DNA from: Vallicoccus soli
GTDB lineage: Bacteria > Actinomycetota > Actinomycetes > Motilibacterales > Motilibacteraceae
Assembly: GCF_003594885.1 (NCBI RefSeq)
Contig: NZ_QZEZ01000003.1
Coordinates: 124,001-188,000, forward strand
Reading direction: 5' to 3'
Length of the DNA: 64,000 nt
Shown one piece after another: positions 2,115-51,336 of this stretch. The translations under genes and the position numbers were made by a program. The notes beneath the pieces are model-generated. The model did not search any database, was not told the origin of the DNA, and was given only the letters and a program-made list of their open reading frames with translations. The first letter of the stretch is position 1, and every line of letters starts with the position of its first letter.

Positions 2115-3373
2115 AGCAGGTGCGGGGCGCGCAGGAACCGGCAGGCCGCGTCGGCGTCCGGCGCCGCCACGTCCCGCCAGGACAGGTCGGGGACCGTGCC
2201 GGCCAGCTCCCCGTACGCCGCCTCGACCCGGCCGGCGAGCACCGGCCAGGCCCAGCGGGTGCGGACCTCCTGCAGCGCGCAGGCGGCGAGCCGGCGCCGC
2301 AGCGGGCCGTCGGCGAGCAGGCGCTCGACCGCGGCCGTCAGGGCCGGGACGTCGTGCACCGGGACGAGCAGGCCGTTCTCGCCGTCGCGCACGCAGTCCA
2401 CGACCCCGACCGAGCGGGTGCTCACGACGGGCAGGCCCGTGGCCATCGCCTCGAGGATGGTGTTGGAGAAGCCCTCGGACTCGGTGGGGCTGAGGAAGGC
2501 GTCGGCGGCGGCGTACACCTCCGGCGCCTTGTCGTGCGCCACGTAGCCGAGCTGGTCGACCAGGTCCTGCAGCCCCAGCTCGGCGACGAGGTCGTCCACC
2601 GCGCGCACGTCCGGCCCGATGCCCGAGACGACGAGGCGCACCGGGCGCCCCGCGTCGCGCAGCGCGGCGACGGCCCGCACGGCGTCGAGCACGCCCTTGC
2701 GCCGGTCCACGCGGCCGTGGAAGAGCAGGACCGGCGGGTCCTGCAGGTCCCCGGGCGCCCGCCCGGGCGCCGGGGCGAACGCCGTCGTGTCGGTCGCGCC
2801 GCCGAGCACGTCGAAGCGCTCCAGCGGCGTGCCGTGGTTGGCCGCGACCTCCTCGGCGAAGGACGCCGAGCCGATGAGGAGCCGCCCCGCGTGGGCGAGG
2901 ACGGTCCGGATGCCGTGCCCGTGCCGGTCGCAGCAGAGCCCCACCCAGTGCCCGTCGCCGCCCTGGATGCTCACGACCGACGGCACGCCGGTCCGCGCCG
3001 ACGCCTCGAGCACGGCCATGCCGGTCGGCCAGCCGTACTGCGCGTGCAGCACGTCGAAGGGCCGCTCCGCGTGCAGGCGCTCGACGACGTCCGCGACGGC
3101 GGTGATGTCGGCGTCGAAGTCCGCGTCGTGCCCGTCGGCCACCCGCTGCTCGCCGACGGCCTCGACCGGGACGGCCCGCACGCCGGCGGGGACCCGCTCG
3201 GCCGGCGGGGGCCCGCCGCCGTAGACGGCCACGCCGTCCGGGTCGCCCCGGAACTGGCTGACGAGGACGACCTCGTGCCCGCGCGCCGCGAGCTGCGCGA
3301 GCAGCTGCTCGGCGTAGACGCTCATCCCGCTCACCGCCGGCCAGTAGCGCCGGCTGACGAAGCAGACGCGCAT
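2111..3373 (-). CDS. Family 4 (GT-B) glycosyltransferase
   Basis: A 420-residue protein. The N-terminus MRVCFVSRRYWPAVSGMSVY is the usual GT4 opening with the glycine-containing acceptor loop. The C-terminal Rossmann domain has FHGRVDRRKG and the EX7E motif ESEGFSNTILE, which binds the nucleotide-sugar ribose and phosphates. GT4 enzymes are retaining; the family includes MshA, which adds GlcNAc to inositol-3-phosphate. The ATG was chosen because it overlaps the YcaO stop codon by one base (TGATG) and begins exactly at the conserved beta strand; longer versions in this frame are not homologous. Donor and acceptor are unknown. The inositol-phosphate synthase at the head of the operon makes an inositol acceptor plausible. 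Confidence 0.9.
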   Translation of the reverse strand: MRVCFVSRRYWPAVSGMSVYAEQLLAQLAARGHEVVLVSQFRGDPDGVAVYGGGPPPAERVPAGVRAVPVEAVGEQRVADGHDADFDADITAVADVVERLHAERPFDVLHAQYGWPTGMAVLEASARTGVPSVVSIQGGDGHWVGLCCDRHGHGIRTVLAHAGRLLIGSASFAEEVAANHGTPLERFDVLGGATDTTAFAPAPGRAPGDLQDPPVLLFHGRVDRRKGVLDAVRAVAALRDAGRPVRLVVSGIGPDVRAVDDLVAELGLQDLVDQLGYVAHDKAPEVYAAADAFLSPTESEGFSNTILEAMATGLPVVSTRSVGVVDCVRDGENGLLVPVHDVPALTAAVERLLADGPLRRRLAACALQEVRTRWAWPVLAGRVEAAYGELAGTVPDLSWRDVAAPDADAACRFLRAPHLL

Positions 3374-4893
3374 CAGCGGCTCCGGGCGCCGAGGGCGAGC
3401 TGCGCGGCGTGCCGCGCGGGCTCGCGGTAGAGCGGGTAGAGCGGGCCGACGACGCGCTCGGCGGCGGCCCGGTCGAACCACGGCCGGCCGCCGAGGCGGT
3501 CGTGCGCCTCCGCGGTGAGCAGGACCGGCGCCGCGCCCTCCGGCGCTGGCCCCAGCCCCACGAGGCCGTGCTCGCCGGTGGTGCCGTCGCCCCGGCGCAG
3601 CAGCTCGGCGACGCCGCGCTCGCCGATGCGCCCGTAGCTCATGGTCTCGACCTCGAGGCCGGGCACCACCACGCGGGCGGCCGCGGCGCCGTCGGCCGAG
3701 CAGTCCAGCACGAGGACGTCGTGCCCGGCACGCCCCAGGACGTCGACGAGGTGGGCGCAGGTGGCCCCCGGCCCGTCGAGCGGGGTGGTCGGCAGGTCGG
3801 CGAAGGGGACGCTCGTCCGACGGGACAGCACGCTGCCGGAGAGCGCTTCCCGCAACTCGTCGGCGTCGAAGGACAGCCAGCGCACCATCTCCTCGAGCGT
3901 GCGGCGCTCCTGGTGCGCCGGGTCGCTCGCCCCCGTGGCGAGCCACCGGTCGAGGTACGCGCCCGGCGCGACGGCCGCCACCGCGTCGAGCGGGCCATGC
4001 ATGAAGGCCTTGCGGGCCCTGGCCGCGGAGAACTCGAGCACCGCCTTGCGCAGCGCCACCTCGCGGTCCGGGTGCGCCGCCTCGCCGGCGGCCGTCACCT
4101 TCAGCGCGAGGTCGGGCTCGCGGTCGTCGCCGACGACGTAGAGGTCCACGACCCCGAGGGCCGTGGTGGCCAGCTTGACCAGCGGCTCCACCCCGGCCGC
4201 CCGCAGGTCCGCGAGCACCTCGCGGGTAACGGGGTCGTGCACGTCGCAGTCGCCGGGGCCGAGGTCGAGCACGACGCCCTGGTCGAGCGCCCGGAAGCGC
4301 AGCCCGTTGCCGTCGCGCTGGAGCAGCTCGCCGAGGCCGTGGGCCACGGCGCGCTCGAGCGTGTCGCCGGCCCCGAGCCCGTTCGTGATGAGGGTCATGA
4401 GCCGCCCGCCGGGCGGCGGCGCGCTGCCCGGTGGCAGGTCCGCCTCCTCCTCGGCGGCGAGCTCGACCGGGACGAGCACCTCCTCCCCGCTCCCCCAGCG
4501 GGTGAAGGGCACCCAGTCCAGAGGGCGCTCCGGCGCGTAGCCGCAGCCGGCGGGCAGGCACAGGGTCAGCGGGTCGGCGACGCCGCGCGGGCCGACCTCG
4601 GCGAGCAGCTCCGCGTACGACGCCCGCCGCGGCGGGGTGCGGCGCAGCCGGCGGCGCAGCAGCGCCGCCTCGGCCGCCTCGCCCCACGTCGAGCGCAGCG
4701 CCTCGTCGTCCGTCGCGCCGTAGCCGTGCCCGGCGGGCACCGACCCGTCGGCGCCGAAGCAGACCGCGGCCCAGGCGGGCACGCCCACGCGGTCCAGCGG
4801 GGACGTGGCGAAGGCGACGAGGTCGCCCGCGGGCATCGCCGCGCGGTAGCGCTCGGCGGCGTCGGCCGCGCTGCTGGTGGTCCCGGCGCTCAC
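3373..4893 (-). CDS. YcaO-like family protein
   Basis: A 506-residue protein starting at a GTG that overlaps the previous stop (GTGA). The YcaO fold shows in order: LDWVPFTRWGSGEEVLVPVE, then the nucleotide-binding segment TNGLGAGDTLERAVAHGL followed by GELLQRD, then KVTAAGEAAHPD and EVALRKAVLEFSAARAR, matching the S/N-G-x-G-x-G, E-x-x-E/D and E-x-x-Q/S-x-R regions of ATP-dependent YcaO enzymes. Known members phosphorylate a backbone amide and make azolines, thioamides or amidines. None of the expected RiPP partners (E1-like/ocin-ThiF protein, TfuA, dehydrogenase or a Cys/Ser/Thr-rich precursor) is recognisable beside it. It sits between a TIM-barrel gene and a glycosyltransferase, so a small-molecule substrate is possible. 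Confidence 0.85.
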   Translation of the reverse strand: MSAGTTSSAADAAERYRAAMPAGDLVAFATSPLDRVGVPAWAAVCFGADGSVPAGHGYGATDDEALRSTWGEAAEAALLRRRLRRTPPRRASYAELLAEVGPRGVADPLTLCLPAGCGYAPERPLDWVPFTRWGSGEEVLVPVELAAEEEADLPPGSAPPPGGRLMTLITNGLGAGDTLERAVAHGLGELLQRDGNGLRFRALDQGVVLDLGPGDCDVHDPVTREVLADLRAAGVEPLVKLATTALGVVDLYVVGDDREPDLALKVTAAGEAAHPDREVALRKAVLEFSAARARKAFMHGPLDAVAAVAPGAYLDRWLATGASDPAHQERRTLEEMVRWLSFDADELREALSGSVLSRRTSVPFADLPTTPLDGPGATCAHLVDVLGRAGHDVLVLDCSADGAAAARVVVPGLEVETMSYGRIGERGVAELLRRGDGTTGEHGLVGLGPAPEGAAPVLLTAEAHDRLGGRPWFDRAAAERVVGPLYPLYREPARHAAQLALGARSR

Positions 4894-15088: not shown

Positions 15089-16135
15089 GTGCCCGACCTC
15101 GCCACCGTGCCGCTGTCCGTCCTCGAGCTGTCCCCGGTCCTGTCGGATCAGACGCCCCACGAGGCCCTCGAGGCCACCGTCGACGTGGCCCGGCTCGCCG
15201 AGGACCTGGGCGCCACGCGGTTCTGGCTCGCCGAGCACCACGGGATGCCGGGCATCGCCAGCTCGTCCCCGGCCGTGCTCCTCGCGCACGTCGCGGCGCG
15301 CACGTCGACCCTGCGGGTCGGCTCGGGCGGGGTCATGCTGCCCAACCACGCGCCGCTCGTCGTCGCCGAGCAGTTCGCGACCCTCGCGTCGCTGCACCCC
15401 GGCCGGGTCGACCTCGGCATCGGCCGCGCTCCCGGCACCGACGGCGCGACGGCCCGCGCCCTGCGGCGCACCGCGTCGCTGGGCGCCGAGGACTTCCCCG
15501 AGCAGCTCGGCGAGCTGCTCGGGTTCCTGCACGGCACGTTCCCCGAGGACCACCCGTACGCCCGCCTCGTCCTCGTCCCCGAGCTCGCGTCGGTCGAGGA
15601 CGCCCCGCAGGTCTGGCTCCTCGGCTCCAGCGGCTACAGCGCCCAGGTGGCCGGGCTGCTCGGGCTGCGCTTCGCCTTCGCGCACCACTTCGCCGGCCAG
15701 GGCACGGAGGAGGCGCTCGCGCTCTACCGCGGCACGTTCCGGCCGTCGCGGCACCTCGACGCCCCGTACGCCATGGTCACCGCCACGGTCGTCTCCGCGC
15801 CCACCGACGAGGAGGCGCGGCACGTGGCGCGCACCGGGCAGCTCGCGATTCTGCGCCTGCGCACCGGTCGCCCGAGCCGCATGCCGACGCCCGAGGAGGC
15901 CGCGGCGCACGGTTGGACCGAGCTCGACCTCGCGATCGCCGAGCAGGCCTCGCTCGGGCACGTCGTCGGCGACCCCGCCGCCGTCCGCGCCGGGCTCGAC
16001 GAGCTGGTGCAGCGCACCGCGCCCGACGAGCTCATGGTGACCACCCTGTCCGGGCGCCCCGCCGACCGGCTGCGCAGCCTGCGCACGGTCGCCGAGGTCA
16101 CCGGGCGCCTGCCCGCGCCCGCCCCCGTCGCCTGA
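15089..16135 (+). CDS. LLM-class flavin-dependent oxidoreductase
   Basis: A 348-residue luciferase-like monooxygenase. Typical segments are LSVLELSPV at the N-terminus, TRFWLAEHHGMPGIASSSP, LRVGSGGVMLPNHAPLVVAE, RVDLGIGRAPG and VWLLGSSGYSAQVAGLLG, which place it in the MsnO8-like subgroup. Such proteins use FMNH2 or F420 from solution; substrates are mostly unknown. The GTG at 15089 was preferred over an upstream TTG because the conserved core starts about 10 residues later and a GCAGGGA sequence precedes it. It may be co-transcribed with the haem monooxygenase 48 bp upstream. Confidence 0.88.
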   Translation: MPDLATVPLSVLELSPVLSDQTPHEALEATVDVARLAEDLGATRFWLAEHHGMPGIASSSPAVLLAHVAARTSTLRVGSGGVMLPNHAPLVVAEQFATLASLHPGRVDLGIGRAPGTDGATARALRRTASLGAEDFPEQLGELLGFLHGTFPEDHPYARLVLVPELASVEDAPQVWLLGSSGYSAQVAGLLGLRFAFAHHFAGQGTEEALALYRGTFRPSRHLDAPYAMVTATVVSAPTDEEARHVARTGQLAILRLRTGRPSRMPTPEEAAAHGWTELDLAIAEQASLGHVVGDPAAVRAGLDELVQRTAPDELMVTTLSGRPADRLRSLRTVAEVTGRLPAPAPVA

Positions 16136-16138
16136 CCC

Positions 16139-16345
16139 CCGCGACCCCTCCGCGGACGGCGCCCACCCTCCCCGCGAGGGGGACGGCGGCCACCCCTCCC
16201 GCCGCGGTCATGCGCGCAGGACCGCCACCCGTCGGCCGCGACCCTGCACGGAGGGCCGCCACCCGCCGGCCGCGACCCTGCGCGGACGTCGCCGCTCCAC
16301 CCCCACCCGCCGCGATCATGCGCGGATGGCGGAGGCCGGCAGGCC
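16139..16345. repeat. Degenerate tandem array of ~34-bp units
   Basis: Non-coding stretch right after the LLM oxidoreductase stop. About six loosely conserved units each begin with a CCGCGA/CCGCGG block and end with a CCACCC-like block; recognisable unit starts are near 16139, 16172, 16202, 16236, 16270 and 16310. Two units carry the hairpin core CCGCG-(R/A)TCATG-CGCG. No reading frame is convincing in either direction. With the inverted copy at 16421-16449 this fills most of the 334-bp gap between the convergent LLM and DUF445 genes. Confidence 0.6.
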
Positions 16346-16449
16346 CGGAGGGCGTGGGCGACGCCCCCGCGACCTGCCACGCCGAGCGCGCGAGATCACG
16401 GGGGTACGGAGGACCAGCTGCGCCATCCGCGCACGATCACGGCGGGGTG
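16304..16449. repeat. 28-bp inverted repeat pair with 89-bp spacer
   Basis: The left arm 16304-16331 (core CCGCGATCATGCGCGGATGG) reappears in inverted orientation at 16421-16449 with two or three differences (one inserted G, two transitions). The left arm also contains the small hairpin CCGCG/CGCGG. Located between convergent genes, it could form a long stem acting as a bidirectional terminator, or be a pair of REP-like elements. Confidence 0.6.
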
Positions 16450-16469
16450 CGCCGGTGACGGGGCGGGCG

Positions 16470-17744
16470 CTACCCCAGCAGGTCGGCGACGCCGTGGATC
16501 ACGAGCCCGGCGAGGGCGCCGACGACGGTGCCGTTGACCCGGATGTACTGCAGGTCCCGCCCGACCTGCAGCTCCACCTTGCGCGCGGTGCTGCGCGCGT
16601 CCCAGGCGGCGACGGTGTCGGTGATCAGCGTGAGGATCTCGTCGCGGTAGGTCGAGACGACGTACCCGACGAGGTCCTCCACCCGGGCGTCGACCTTGGC
16701 GCGCAGCGGCGCGTCGTCCTCGAGCCGGGCGCCGAGCGCGGCGAGCTCGTCGGTGATGCGCCGGCGCAGCTCGCTGTCCGGGTCGTCCACGAGCTCGAGC
16801 AGGGTGGTGCGCCCGGACTCGACGACCTGCGCGAACGAGCGGTGCACGGCGGGGTGCTCGGCGAGGGCGCGGACCTGGCCGTCCACGCGGGCGACGGTGG
16901 CCGCGTCCTGCTGCAGGTCGCGGGCGAGCTGGGCGAGGAAGCGGTCGATGGCGCCGCGCGCGTCGTGGGCGGGGTCGTCGCGGACGCCCGCCGCGATGCG
17001 GACCAGCTCGGCGTACAGCCGCTCGGACACGCGCTCGTCGAGCCAGCGCGGCGACCACGCCGGCGCCTGGGCGGTCATGAGGTCGAGCAGGCTCTCCCGG
17101 TTGGCGACGAGCCAGTCGTGGGTGCGCTCGGCGGCGAGGTCGACGAGCCCGTGGTGGGCGCCGTCGTCCACGACGCGGTCGAGCAGCCGGCCGAGGGCCG
17201 GCGCGACCGACGTGGTGCCCAGCCGGCGCAGGGCGGCGCGCTCGAGCACGCCGACGACCTGCTCGTCGCGCAGCAGCCCGGCCCCGGCCCGCACGACCCG
17301 GGCCAGCTCCTCGGTGACGCGCGCCGCGCCCTCGGGGCGCCGCAGCCAGCGGCCGAGCCGGCGCGTGACCTCGGCCCGGCGCAGCTTGCCGCGGACCACG
17401 TCCTCGGCGAGGAAGTTGGCGCCGACGAACTCCCCGAGGCTCGTGCCGAGCGCGTCCTTGCGGCGCGGGATGATCGCGGTGTGCGGGACGGGCACCCCCA
17501 GCGGGTGCCGGAACAGCGCCGTGACCGCGAACCAGTCGGCGAGCCCGCCGACCATCCCGGCCTCGGCGGCCGCCCGGGCGTAGCCGACCCAGGCGGGCCC
17601 GCCCTCCTCCTGCGCCCGCAGCACCAGCCAGAGCACCGCCGCCACGAGCAGCAGCCCGGTCGCGAAGGCCTTGTGCCGGCGCAGGCTGGTCCGCCGCGCC
17701 AGGTCGGCGGCGGAGAGCTCGGTGGGGTCGACGGGTGCGCGCAC
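16470..17744 (-). CDS. DUF445 family membrane protein
   Basis: A 424-residue protein. An N-terminal hydrophobic helix (FATGLLLVAAVLWLVL, ~26-41) is followed by the DUF445 hallmark GMVGGLADWFAVTALFRHPLG and IIPRRKDALGTSLGEFVGANFL, then long amphipathic helices, and a C-terminal hydrophobic segment VVGALAGLVIHGVADLL. The family is known as YheB-like or 'DUF445 domain-containing' and is membrane-anchored; a biochemical role is not established. The start is a GTG just before the helical region. It lies 47 bp downstream of the TauE-like gene in the same direction and may share its transcript. Confidence 0.85.
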   Translation of the reverse strand: MRAPVDPTELSAADLARRTSLRRHKAFATGLLLVAAVLWLVLRAQEEGGPAWVGYARAAAEAGMVGGLADWFAVTALFRHPLGVPVPHTAIIPRRKDALGTSLGEFVGANFLAEDVVRGKLRRAEVTRRLGRWLRRPEGAARVTEELARVVRAGAGLLRDEQVVGVLERAALRRLGTTSVAPALGRLLDRVVDDGAHHGLVDLAAERTHDWLVANRESLLDLMTAQAPAWSPRWLDERVSERLYAELVRIAAGVRDDPAHDARGAIDRFLAQLARDLQQDAATVARVDGQVRALAEHPAVHRSFAQVVESGRTTLLELVDDPDSELRRRITDELAALGARLEDDAPLRAKVDARVEDLVGYVVSTYRDEILTLITDTVAAWDARSTARKVELQVGRDLQYIRVNGTVVGALAGLVIHGVADLLG

Positions 17745-28196: not shown

Positions 28197-28919
28197 TCAG
28201 GCGACGCCCCACTGCCCGGGCCGGGCCGCCGACGGCCGGGTGCCGTCCACGCTGCTCCCCCCGGTGCCGTCGTCGCTGCCGTCGTCGCTGCCGTCGTCGC
28301 TGCCGCCGTCGCTGCCGTCGTCGCTGCCGCCGTCGCTGCCGCCGCCCCAGCCGCCCGGCCCGTGCGGGCCGCGACCCGGGCCGCCGACGGGACCGGAGCG
28401 CTCGACCAGCGCCTCGACCCGCTCGCGCAGGCCGTCGGCGCGCTCGTCCGCCTCCTCCTGGGTGAGATCGCCCTCCTGCACCTCCTCGGCGAGGTGCTCC
28501 TGCGCCGCGGCGACGAGGGCGTCGACGACCGCCGACACCTCGACGCCCCGCTCCTGCGCGACGTCCGCGAGGCTGGAGCCCTCGCGCAGGGCCGTGAGCA
28601 GCTCGTCCTCGGTGACCCCGAGCGCCTCGGCGGCCGCGTCCAGCGCCGGCGGGCCGCCGAGCCCGCCCGGACCGCCGCGGTGCCCGCCCGGCCCGCGCCC
28701 GAGCGGCGCGTCGGCGAGCGCGTCGGCGACCTCGTCGGCCTGCGCGTCGCTGAGCGTGCCGTCGTCGACGAGGCCCTGCAGGGCCTCGCGCACCGCGCCC
28801 ACCCGGTCCGCGAGCGCGCTCGCGCCGTCCGTCGCCGCCACGGCCGTGCCGCCCAGCCCCACCGCCGCGAGCGCCACCAAGCCCATCCCCGCCACTACCC
28901 TGCCCGTCGTCCTGCGCAC
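28197..28919 (-). CDS. Secreted acidic repeat protein
   Basis: A 240-residue protein with a clear signal peptide (RRTTGRVVAGMGLVALAAVGLGGTAVAA, cleavage near 28-30). The middle has helical blocks (GTLSDAQADEVADALADAP; LGVTEDELLTALREGSSLADV) similar to repeats in other actinobacterial secreted proteins with unknown roles. Residues ~193-222 are a Gly-Ser-Asp repeat encoded by a 12-bp tandem repeat. It has no catalytic motif I recognise. It probably resides in or near the cell wall, and the Asp-rich tail may bind cations. Confidence 0.75.
   Translation of the reverse strand: MRRTTGRVVAGMGLVALAAVGLGGTAVAATDGASALADRVGAVREALQGLVDDGTLSDAQADEVADALADAPLGRGPGGHRGGPGGLGGPPALDAAAEALGVTEDELLTALREGSSLADVAQERGVEVSAVVDALVAAAQEHLAEEVQEGDLTQEEADERADGLRERVEALVERSGPVGGPGRGPHGPGGWGGGSDGGSDDGSDGGSDDGSDDGSDDGTGGSSVDGTRPSAARPGQWGVA
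28266..28343. repeat. 12-bp tandem repeat inside the secreted-protein gene
   Basis: About six copies of CTGCCGTCGTCG (or CTGCCGCCGTCG), coding in the minus direction for Asp-Asp-Gly-Ser and Gly-Gly-Ser-Asp steps. Copy number may vary between strains by slippage. Confidence 0.75.
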
Positions 28920-50041: not shown

Positions 50042-50063
50042 CCTTGTCCGGCGCCACCTGCGG

Positions 50064-50079
50064 CCGCGACCATGCGCGG
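50064..50079. repeat. Dispersed hairpin element CCGCGACCATGCGCGG
   Basis: CCGCG-ACCATG-CGCGG followed by TGGCGGAG. The same core (with GATCATG), also followed by (G)ATGGCGGAG, occurs at 16310-16335. Here it abuts the GTG of the hydroxyacid dehydrogenase gene. Confidence 0.55.
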
Positions 50080-51336
50080 GTGGCGGAGTCGTACGGGCGT
50101 CGGGTGCAGTCGCGGATCTACCGCGAGGGGGTGCTCGGCCGGCGCCCGGCGGTCCCCGTCGACCCCGTACGCCTCGCCGCCGCGGCCCGCCGCCGCATGC
50201 CGCGGCGCGCGTGGGCGTACGTCGCCGGCTCCGCGGGGCAGCAGGCGACGGAGCGGGCGAACCGGGCGGCGCTCGACGCGTGGCGCATCGTGCCGCGGAT
50301 GCTCCGCGCCGTGGAGGAGCGCGACCTGTCGGTCGAGCTGTTCGGGCAGCGCTACCCCGCACCGGTGCTGCTCGCGCCCATCGGGGTCCTGGAGATGGCG
50401 CACCCCGAGGCGGACCTGGCCGTCGCGCGCGCGTCGGCGCGGCTGGGCCTGCCGATGCTCGTCTCGACGCAGGGGTCGGCGCCGGTGGAGGCGACGGCAG
50501 CGGCGGCCGGCGCGACCGCGCCCTGGTTCCAGCTCTACTGGAGCCGCGAGCCGGACCTCGTCGCGAGCATGGTCCGCCGTGCCGAGGCCTCCGGGTGCCG
50601 CGCGCTCGTCGTCACCGTCGACACCCACCTGCTCGGCTGGCGCCCGCAGGACCTCGACCTCGGCCACCTGCCGTTCGCCCGCGGCCTCGGCATCGCGCAG
50701 TACACCAGCGACCCCGTCTTCGCCCGCCTCGTCGCCGAGCGCCCGCGCAGCCGCACGTCCGCGCGGCCCACCCCCGCGGCGGTCGGCGCGCTGCTGTCCA
50801 TGGCCCGGCACCACCCGGGGGGCACGTGGGCGAACCTGCGCTCCCCCGCGCCCCGCGCCGCCGTCGAGACGTTCCTCGACGTCTTCAGCAACCCCGCGCT
50901 CACGTGGGACGACCTCGGCCGGCTGCGCGGCCTCACGAGCCTCCCGGTGCTGGTCAAGGGCGTCCAGACCCGCGAGGACGCCCGGCTGGCCGAGGAGCAC
51001 GGCGCCGACGGCGTCGTCGTGTCGAACCACGGCGGCCGGCAGGTCGACGGCGCGCTCGGCTCGCTCGACGCCCTCGCGGACGTCGCGGGCTCGGTCGACG
51101 TGCCGGTCCTCTTCGACAGCGGCATCCGCGGCGGCGCCGACGCCTTCAAGGCGCTCGCCCTGGGCGCCCGGGCCGTCCTGCTCGGTCGCCCGTACGTCTA
51201 CGGCCTCGCCCTCGCCGGCGAGGAGGGCGTCGTGCAGGTGGTCGAGCACCTCGTCGCCGAGCTCGACCTCACCCTCGGGCTGGCCGGCTGCCGGACCCTC
51301 GCCGACGTGGGACCGGCGGCGGTCCGGCGCTGCTGA
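50080..51336 (+). CDS. FMN-dependent alpha-hydroxyacid dehydrogenase/oxidase
   Basis: A 418-residue TIM-barrel flavoenzyme of the L-lactate dehydrogenase (LldD)/glycolate oxidase/lactate oxidase family. Active-site elements are present: WAYVAGSAG (Tyr), LAPIGVLEMAHPEADLAVARA, APWFQLYW, LVVTVDT, PVLVKGVQTREDA (Lys), VVSNHGGRQVDGALGS (catalytic His and Arg) and FDSGIRGGADAFKAL. It oxidises (S)-2-hydroxyacids. The start is GTG 50080, with GTG 50104 an alternative; neither has a clear ribosome-binding site, and a repeat element sits directly before 50080. Confidence 0.9.
   Translation: MAESYGRRVQSRIYREGVLGRRPAVPVDPVRLAAAARRRMPRRAWAYVAGSAGQQATERANRAALDAWRIVPRMLRAVEERDLSVELFGQRYPAPVLLAPIGVLEMAHPEADLAVARASARLGLPMLVSTQGSAPVEATAAAAGATAPWFQLYWSREPDLVASMVRRAEASGCRALVVTVDTHLLGWRPQDLDLGHLPFARGLGIAQYTSDPVFARLVAERPRSRTSARPTPAAVGALLSMARHHPGGTWANLRSPAPRAAVETFLDVFSNPALTWDDLGRLRGLTSLPVLVKGVQTREDARLAEEHGADGVVVSNHGGRQVDGALGSLDALADVAGSVDVPVLFDSGIRGGADAFKALALGARAVLLGRPYVYGLALAGEEGVVQVVEHLVAELDLTLGLAGCRTLADVGPAAVRRC

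Follow-up and report, generated by a model that had tools for sequence, protein, structure and literature searches.

A dispersed REP-like repeat family in Vallicoccus soli and its association with an AbiEi-like, PD-(D/E)XK-type nuclease gene

What accounts for a degenerate repeat array filling the intergenic gap between two convergent genes of Vallicoccus soli? Below, we describe this array and the family to which its units belong, examine a nuclease gene found between inverted copies of that family, and weigh the explanations that these observations allow.

The array between two convergent genes

The original prediction placed degenerate units of about 34 bp and an inverted repeat in a 334-bp gap of the window, the whole stretch of 64,000 nucleotides analysed here, and both are present by tandem-repeat detection (TRF), by the pairing of the arms and by weight-matrix scanning (Table 1). 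TRF delimits a period-34 array at 16181-16286 with 3.1 copies and 79% matches, and the arms of the inverted repeat (16306-16334 and 16418-16446) are 90% complementary over 29 nt each, where 28 had been claimed. The 34-bp spacing is confined to the units starting at 16198, 16232 and 16266, the step to the unit at 16306 being 40 bp. The weight matrix was derived from the genome copies and used with a threshold of 14 bits, which four units of the gap pass; third-order Markov sequence, 400 kb in all, peaked at 12.4 bits. A count of about six units, as first proposed, is reached if the weak units are included, but falls to four at 14 bits. Matches to the 22-bp core of the unit at up to three mismatches number three in the window, two of them in the gap and one at position 50064, and average 0.00 in 100 shuffles. 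The closest relatives found for the flanking DUF445 protein are actinobacterial. Elsewhere in the window, positions 28241-28355 hold a 12-bp tandem repeat (TGCCGTCGTCGC/TGCCGCCGTCGC) of up to 7.6 copies.

Table 1. Repeat units and flanking genes in the window
Feature	Position	Strand	Remarks
Flanking gene, luciferase-like monooxygenase	15089-16135	+	Bac_luciferase, 2.4e-41
Intergenic gap holding BIME-like cluster of REP-like units	16136-16469		334 bp
Very weak possible unit	16146-16173	+	Direct repeat, 79% to 16276-16303; below 8 bits
Degenerate REP-like unit	16198-16224	+	16.3 bits (weight matrix)
Degenerate REP-like unit	16232-16258	+	10.4 bits, sub-threshold; supported by 34-bp register
Degenerate REP-like unit	16266-16292	+	17.0 bits (weight matrix)
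Consensus-perfect unit, left arm of inverted repeat	16306-16332	+	40.9 bits; core 16310-16331, 0 mismatches
Weak possible inverted unit within doublet	16371-16404	-	74% to 16412-16445; below 8 bits
Inverted unit, right arm of inverted repeat	16420-16446	-	37.3 bits; 2 core mismatches
Flanking gene, DUF445 protein	16470-17744	-	2e-110
Solitary unit, same family as cluster	50060-50086	+	25.6 bits; 100-bp gap, tandem genes

A dispersed extragenic family concentrated at gene 3' ends

Three units in 34-bp register would suit a purely local tandem duplication of no wider meaning, a reading that is refuted by the copies found elsewhere and to which we give practically no credence. The V. soli genome (G000; 4.04 Mb, 20 contigs, about 77% G+C) contains 88 copies of the 22-bp core CCGYGATCATGCGCNNNTGGCG at up to three mismatches, 44 per strand, with 0 for the reversed control, making the genome-wide recurrence of the unit clear; the original prediction thereby withstands the check for recurrence that it had named. 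The window occupies C3:124001-188000 of this assembly. With a sequence-only profile, at least 143 matches reach E<=0.01 in the same genome, a minimum since scoring covered 150 of 15,657 candidates. We then placed the units relative to genes in 999,050 surveyed bases, made up of the window, the surroundings of copies, two loci with DUF222 and 20 control stretches, each 20 kb long. The 147 matrix matches of at least 14 bits are overwhelmingly intergenic (141, in 63 gaps, assigned with a tolerance of 15 bp), with four in called genes and two unassigned. With genes called by a codon-usage script instead of a standard annotator, and with the site of locus L050 entered as one convergent gap inside which a broken gene remains uncalled, the 63 gaps divide into 36 convergent, 23 tandem and four divergent ones. 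Convergent gaps are thus in excess (36/63 sites versus 23.4% of gap length in the control stretches; binomial p 9e-9), and divergent gaps in deficit (4/63 versus 31.2%; binomial p 2e-6). The unit is therefore a dispersed, extragenic element concentrated at gene 3' ends.

This bias could reflect a bidirectional terminator or an mRNA 3'-end stabiliser serving convergent genes. The window gap itself folds strongly, its two strands reaching z -2.45 and -4.26 and each beating 100/100 shuffles, which lends some substance to the 'complex terminator' that had been proposed for it. The proposal is nevertheless unproven, as no Rho-independent terminator (stem-loop with T tract) was found in the gap. Moreover, 23/63 sites lie between tandem genes, and the repeat is at background level in the genomes sampled outside the taxonomic family, a distribution more fitting for an invader than for a housekeeping terminator. 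We regard a terminator or stabiliser as an improbable explanation of the cluster, although such activity could be a secondary effect.

Part of the family is organized in inverted doublets. Several copies are present at 32/63 sites, and both orientations at 25/63. Among 125 matches, 22 neighbouring pairs of opposite orientation lie no more than 200 bp apart, nine of them spaced 71-77 bp and seven 41-51 bp, while four of 32 same-strand pairs are spaced exactly 33 bp. Several of the inverted doublets at unrelated loci have homologous spacers (for example L053 and L058, 83% over 113 bp), which argues for the spread of a composite of about 105 bp. The family thus takes the form of a REPIN-type inverted doublet with a conserved spacer, although in the V. 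soli genome this applies to only a part of it. Additionally, 278 bp are common to L048 (4236-4513) and L069 (4395-4671) at 94%, including a doublet and a coding-like remnant, and part of this stretch recurs in L052. The remnant may resemble DUF222/HNH genes, which prompted a look at DUF222/13E12 as a partner; the two DUF222 loci, one matched below the family cut-off, hold no unit of at least 14 bits and one of 12.8, and the candidate was rejected.

The unit itself is unevenly conserved, with 5/31 columns invariant in 108 copies and a variable stretch (NNN) inside. Two hairpin models gave paired cells of 75.4% and 91.0% versus shuffled means of 75.4% and 91.1%, with no covariation excess, and the single V. 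soli unit folds about like its shuffles (z about -0.2); hence, this unit alone is not a proven palindrome. Rfam returned no match for the repeat cluster, nor did a genome contig collection searched with the exact IUPAC core. REPs and REPINs, as described in PMC3733652 and PMC3116915, match the family in arrangement and location, as would be expected if this were a classical REP family that has lost its RAYT, or whose RAYT the assembly does not contain. Against this stand the consensus of the 108 copies, which carries neither a GTAG nor a CGTC tag, the lack of Y1_Tnp in all five genomes of the taxonomic family (V. soli included), and the lack of any RAYT family match in V. soli, leaving a classical family very improbable. 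The 'REP-type cluster' of the original prediction holds broadly, given the dispersed, extragenic, mostly 3'-end location and the partial arrangement in inverted doublets, but the family is not a classical REP with a GTAG or CGTC tag and a RAYT.

At up to three mismatches, the core was found in none of four other genomes of the same taxonomic family; across 60 genomes, 11 including V. soli had a match, the other ten with one each, about the reversed-control rate. A class-wide pattern run on 393 genomes matched 65 times in V. soli and once in each of 21 others, and these single matches are background because the reversed control also matched, once or twice, in six genomes. Of the other loci returned by this pattern, the 18 scanned (L018, L161-L166, L168-L178) gave no second unit of at least 11 bits, and only L167, from the sister genus, was positive. 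The profile also matched once in G001 and twice in G003, both genomes of a sister genus, and these matches turned out to be inverted pairs.

A pattern for this sister-genus repeat, run on 40 genomes, gave 60 matches in G003, 19 in G001, six in V. soli, two each in G004 and G017 and one in G012; its reversed control matched once, in G016, and never in G001 or G003. In G003, 50/60 matches make 25 inverted doublets with spacings of 39-50 bp. The 27 doublets in G001 and G003 loci, taken at up to five mismatches, have the form CGCTGATCATGCRCNNNTGGCGAGTTGTCCACAG followed by its inverted copy, with an outer half recognisable as the V. soli unit, and are strong hairpins by their raw mean folding energy of -62.9 kcal/mol. 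No match for the sister repeat was found in viral contigs or plasmids. The inner arms of these doublets (L154, L155, L167, L211-L228) mostly read TTGTCCACA or close variants, a sequence that resembles the actinobacterial DnaA box.

A nuclease gene between inverted repeats

Two sister-genus inverted pairs are not doublets but have their copies 1,014 and 850 bp apart. Each surrounds a gene, and both genes belong to one protein family. The gene at L209 (G003) has an open reading frame of 305 aa, and that at L210 (G001; 2856-3700) is also open, with an internal stretch missing relative to L209. In V. soli, repeats at +4161, +4194, +4227 and -5286 of L050 enclose a frame-broken gene of the same nuclease family. 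A nuclease gene flanked by inverted family copies is thus associated with the repeats in V. soli and two sister-genus genomes. L209 and L210 are not independent support, since they were found through their repeats, and the flanking repeats of L050 are recognised by the matrix only, its repeat-blind flank score of 19 lying within the range of 161 control genes (maximum 19). Further homologues were not found in 40 fetched sister-genus and G004 loci.

The proteins combine two kinds of domain match. AbiEi of PADLOC matched 7/7 proteins scanned, best in L209 (2e-12) and at 9e-6 in L270, and AbiEi_1 was above cut-off in the N-terminal part of L050 and below it in L209. DUF559 exceeded its cut-off in 4/9 genes (L267, L272, L273, L274), and MTES_1575 matched 7/9, every match being below cut-off. 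Pfam gave no match for L270, scanned with cut ends; a PDB sequence search with L209 returned nothing relevant, NCBIfam nothing, and searches of phages and viral contigs no match for the nuclease. Across ten nuclease sequences, the pattern E...D...EYDG..H...D..R is largely kept, which we take to be typical of the PD-(D/E)XK-type nuclease fold. Close to the start of the gene, L209, L268, L269 and L270 also have a TGTGGATAA-like stretch, which was not seen at the three Tsukamurella genes.

Homologues gathered without regard to repeats mostly show a comparable arrangement. Seven were taken from a plasmid collection by tblastn with repeats ignored, and in six of them repeats or palindromes lie on either side of the gene, different ones in each case: those of Arthrobacter ERGS1:01, StoSoilB13 plasmids 1 and 2, and the Tsukamurella records 'plasmid' 12, 22 and 9. 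The Nonomuraea homologue has short repeats upstream only, without clear downstream repeats. The ERGS1:01 repeat, TTGAGGGCCCAGATAATCCGC, has 13 copies at up to four mismatches in 49 kb and none in the reversed control. Flanking repeats also recur within the same organism, at nine places for ERGS1:01, 39 and 11 for StoSoilB13 plasmids 1 and 2, and 20, 12 and six for Tsukamurella 12, 22 and 9, counts that include the source places and some partial matches. Repeat-blind flank scores, from windows of 300 to 400 bp of which some reach 30 bp into the gene, were 22 for L268, 29 for L209, 26 for L210, 40 for L269, 20 for L270, 11 for L267, 47 for L272, 48 for L273, 28 for L274 and 29 for L324. Controls scored up to 14 (42 other L271 genes), up to 19 (the 161 V. 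soli genes) and up to 13 (six Tsukamurella neighbours), StoSoilB13 and the sister genus being without control genes. A weakly related DUF559-like gene of Streptomyces (L115), with a flank score of 13, is not repeat-flanked.

Control stretches chosen blind to repeats and nuclease (400 kb in each of the genomes G001 and G003, and a further 400 kb of V. soli) were searched with ten nuclease queries, together with the first 400 kb of V. soli control. No homologue was found in the G001 and G003 stretches, and one, L324 (17612-18652; 346 aa with a chosen start, open), in the 800 kb from V. soli. At L324, the window repeat type has no match of at least 14 bits, and the gene is flanked by a second repeat type sharing a GATCATGC core. 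Upstream lie six 22-bp units, four of them identical (CGGTGATCATGCACCTGCCCGGC), and the 3' end of the gene is crossed by four inverted units in 22-bp steps, which have diverged beyond the pattern of up to five mismatches. Within the 20-kb stretch around L324, GATCATGC is confined to these ten flanking units. The second type also forms tandem arrays elsewhere, with 22-bp units like CCGTGATCATGCAGCCGCTCGGC; for example, L077 3862-4257 (C9) holds 18 units at exact 22-bp steps. In total, it gave 101 matches at up to five mismatches in the V. soli stretches and 0 in the reversed control, those at five mismatches being probably in part due to chance. With L050 tied to the window type and L324 to the second type, two nuclease genes of V. 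soli go with two repeat types, a gene count that applies to the roughly 35% of the genome covered. Altogether, 7/8 unselected homologues (eight genes, five organisms) are repeat-flanked on both sides.

These pairings bear on another explanation, in which a host DNA-binding protein, gyrase-like or involved in chromosome organisation, binds the repeats as dispersed sites. Recombination would have spread the repeats and selection retained them, and the nuclease genes would merely have inserted in repeat-rich gaps. The very unequal column conservation, invariant columns around an inner NNN, is what a bipartite protein site would give, and the lack of hairpin covariation and the 3'-end location also agree with it. 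Chance insertion, however, leaves unexplained why several nuclease genes each have their own repeat, among them the two of StoSoilB13 and the three of Tsukamurella. Spacers common to several loci speak against this explanation as well, as does a survey of 61 stretches in which 0/661 called V. soli genes had units on each side at a distance of up to 300 bp, the broken L050 gene being outside these 661. We consider a host-protein site unlikely.

Proposed origin and comparison with known systems

We read the window cluster as a BIME-like array that has decayed and been amplified locally, its units belonging to a lineage-specific REP-like family, and that family as one partner in a RAYT/REPIN-like arrangement in which a PD-(D/E)XK-type nuclease takes the place of the HuH transposase, mobilisation being what we infer from the gene-repeat pairs. 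As a whole, this explanation, comprising a BIME-like array, a nuclease-driven family, decay and local slippage, seems to us reasonably probable. The nuclease would recognise its cognate repeat and drive, or have driven, its spread, and the doublets would stand to the gene-bearing element as REPINs stand to RAYT elements, as its non-autonomous relatives. One possible route is that the repeat or its extruded hairpin is cut and then copied during repair. The window array may then have been enlarged locally by tandem slippage; it would persist because insertions are tolerated between convergent 3' ends, perhaps with some secondary influence on transcript ends. Given the frame-broken gene and the diverged repeats, the window repeat type is probably decaying in V. 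soli. Exact copies of the sister-genus repeat make up 23/60 matches in G003 versus 3/19 in G001, and exact copies alongside an open gene (G003), set against diverged ones alongside damaged genes (G001 and V. soli), fit an active versus a decaying family across these three points.

More broadly, we tentatively propose, as a conjecture that falls somewhat short of probable, a second, independent REP class in Actinomycetota, in which a protein with an AbiEi-like DNA-binding domain and a DUF559/MTES_1575 nuclease has its own palindromic family per gene and spreads it, convergent with RAYT/REPIN and based on unrelated chemistry. Among the papers surveyed, none linked DUF559 or AbiEi to REPs or palindromic repeats, and such a link may be described elsewhere. 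The pairing of dispersed repeats with a nuclease gene would be new for such mobile DNA and, if true, would bring a second enzyme into REP evolution. Furthermore, if a DUF559-type nuclease mobilises REPs, actinobacterial proteins now called 'hypothetical' or 'DUF559 domain-containing' would gain a function. The gene-repeat pairs found here make the mechanism directly testable.

Compared with the REP/BIME/REPIN and RAYT systems, as presented in PMC2817692 and PMC3116915, the family is alike in its dispersed extragenic repeats, inverted doublets and 3'-end location. Shared with RAYT systems are also a nuclease-type gene between two inverted repeats and one repeat family per gene, but the enzyme there is a HuH Y1 transposase, whereas here it is an AbiEi-like and PD-(D/E)XK-type (DUF559/MTES_1575) protein; unlike REP/BIME elements, the repeats here are without the GTAG tag, and the single V. 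soli unit is not a significant hairpin. The REPs of PMC3733652 that carry a CGTC tag and lack a dedicated transposase are palindromic and, like the family here, are high-copy, have no RAYT and favour convergent or unidirectional gaps, but differ in the tag, which the consensus here does not carry, and in the candidate partner enzyme found here. How such REPs are mobilised is left open in the abstract of that paper, and 'Actinobacteria' has 0 occurrences in its main text. MITEs are comparable in being short elements with inverted ends and common spacers, accompanied by a longer relative that has the same ends and carries a gene; no DDE transposase parent came to light in the pairs examined here. 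Finally, AbiEi antitoxins and DUF559 or Vsr-like nucleases are alike in domain matches, but here both parts stand in one protein, and dispersed repeats flank its gene.
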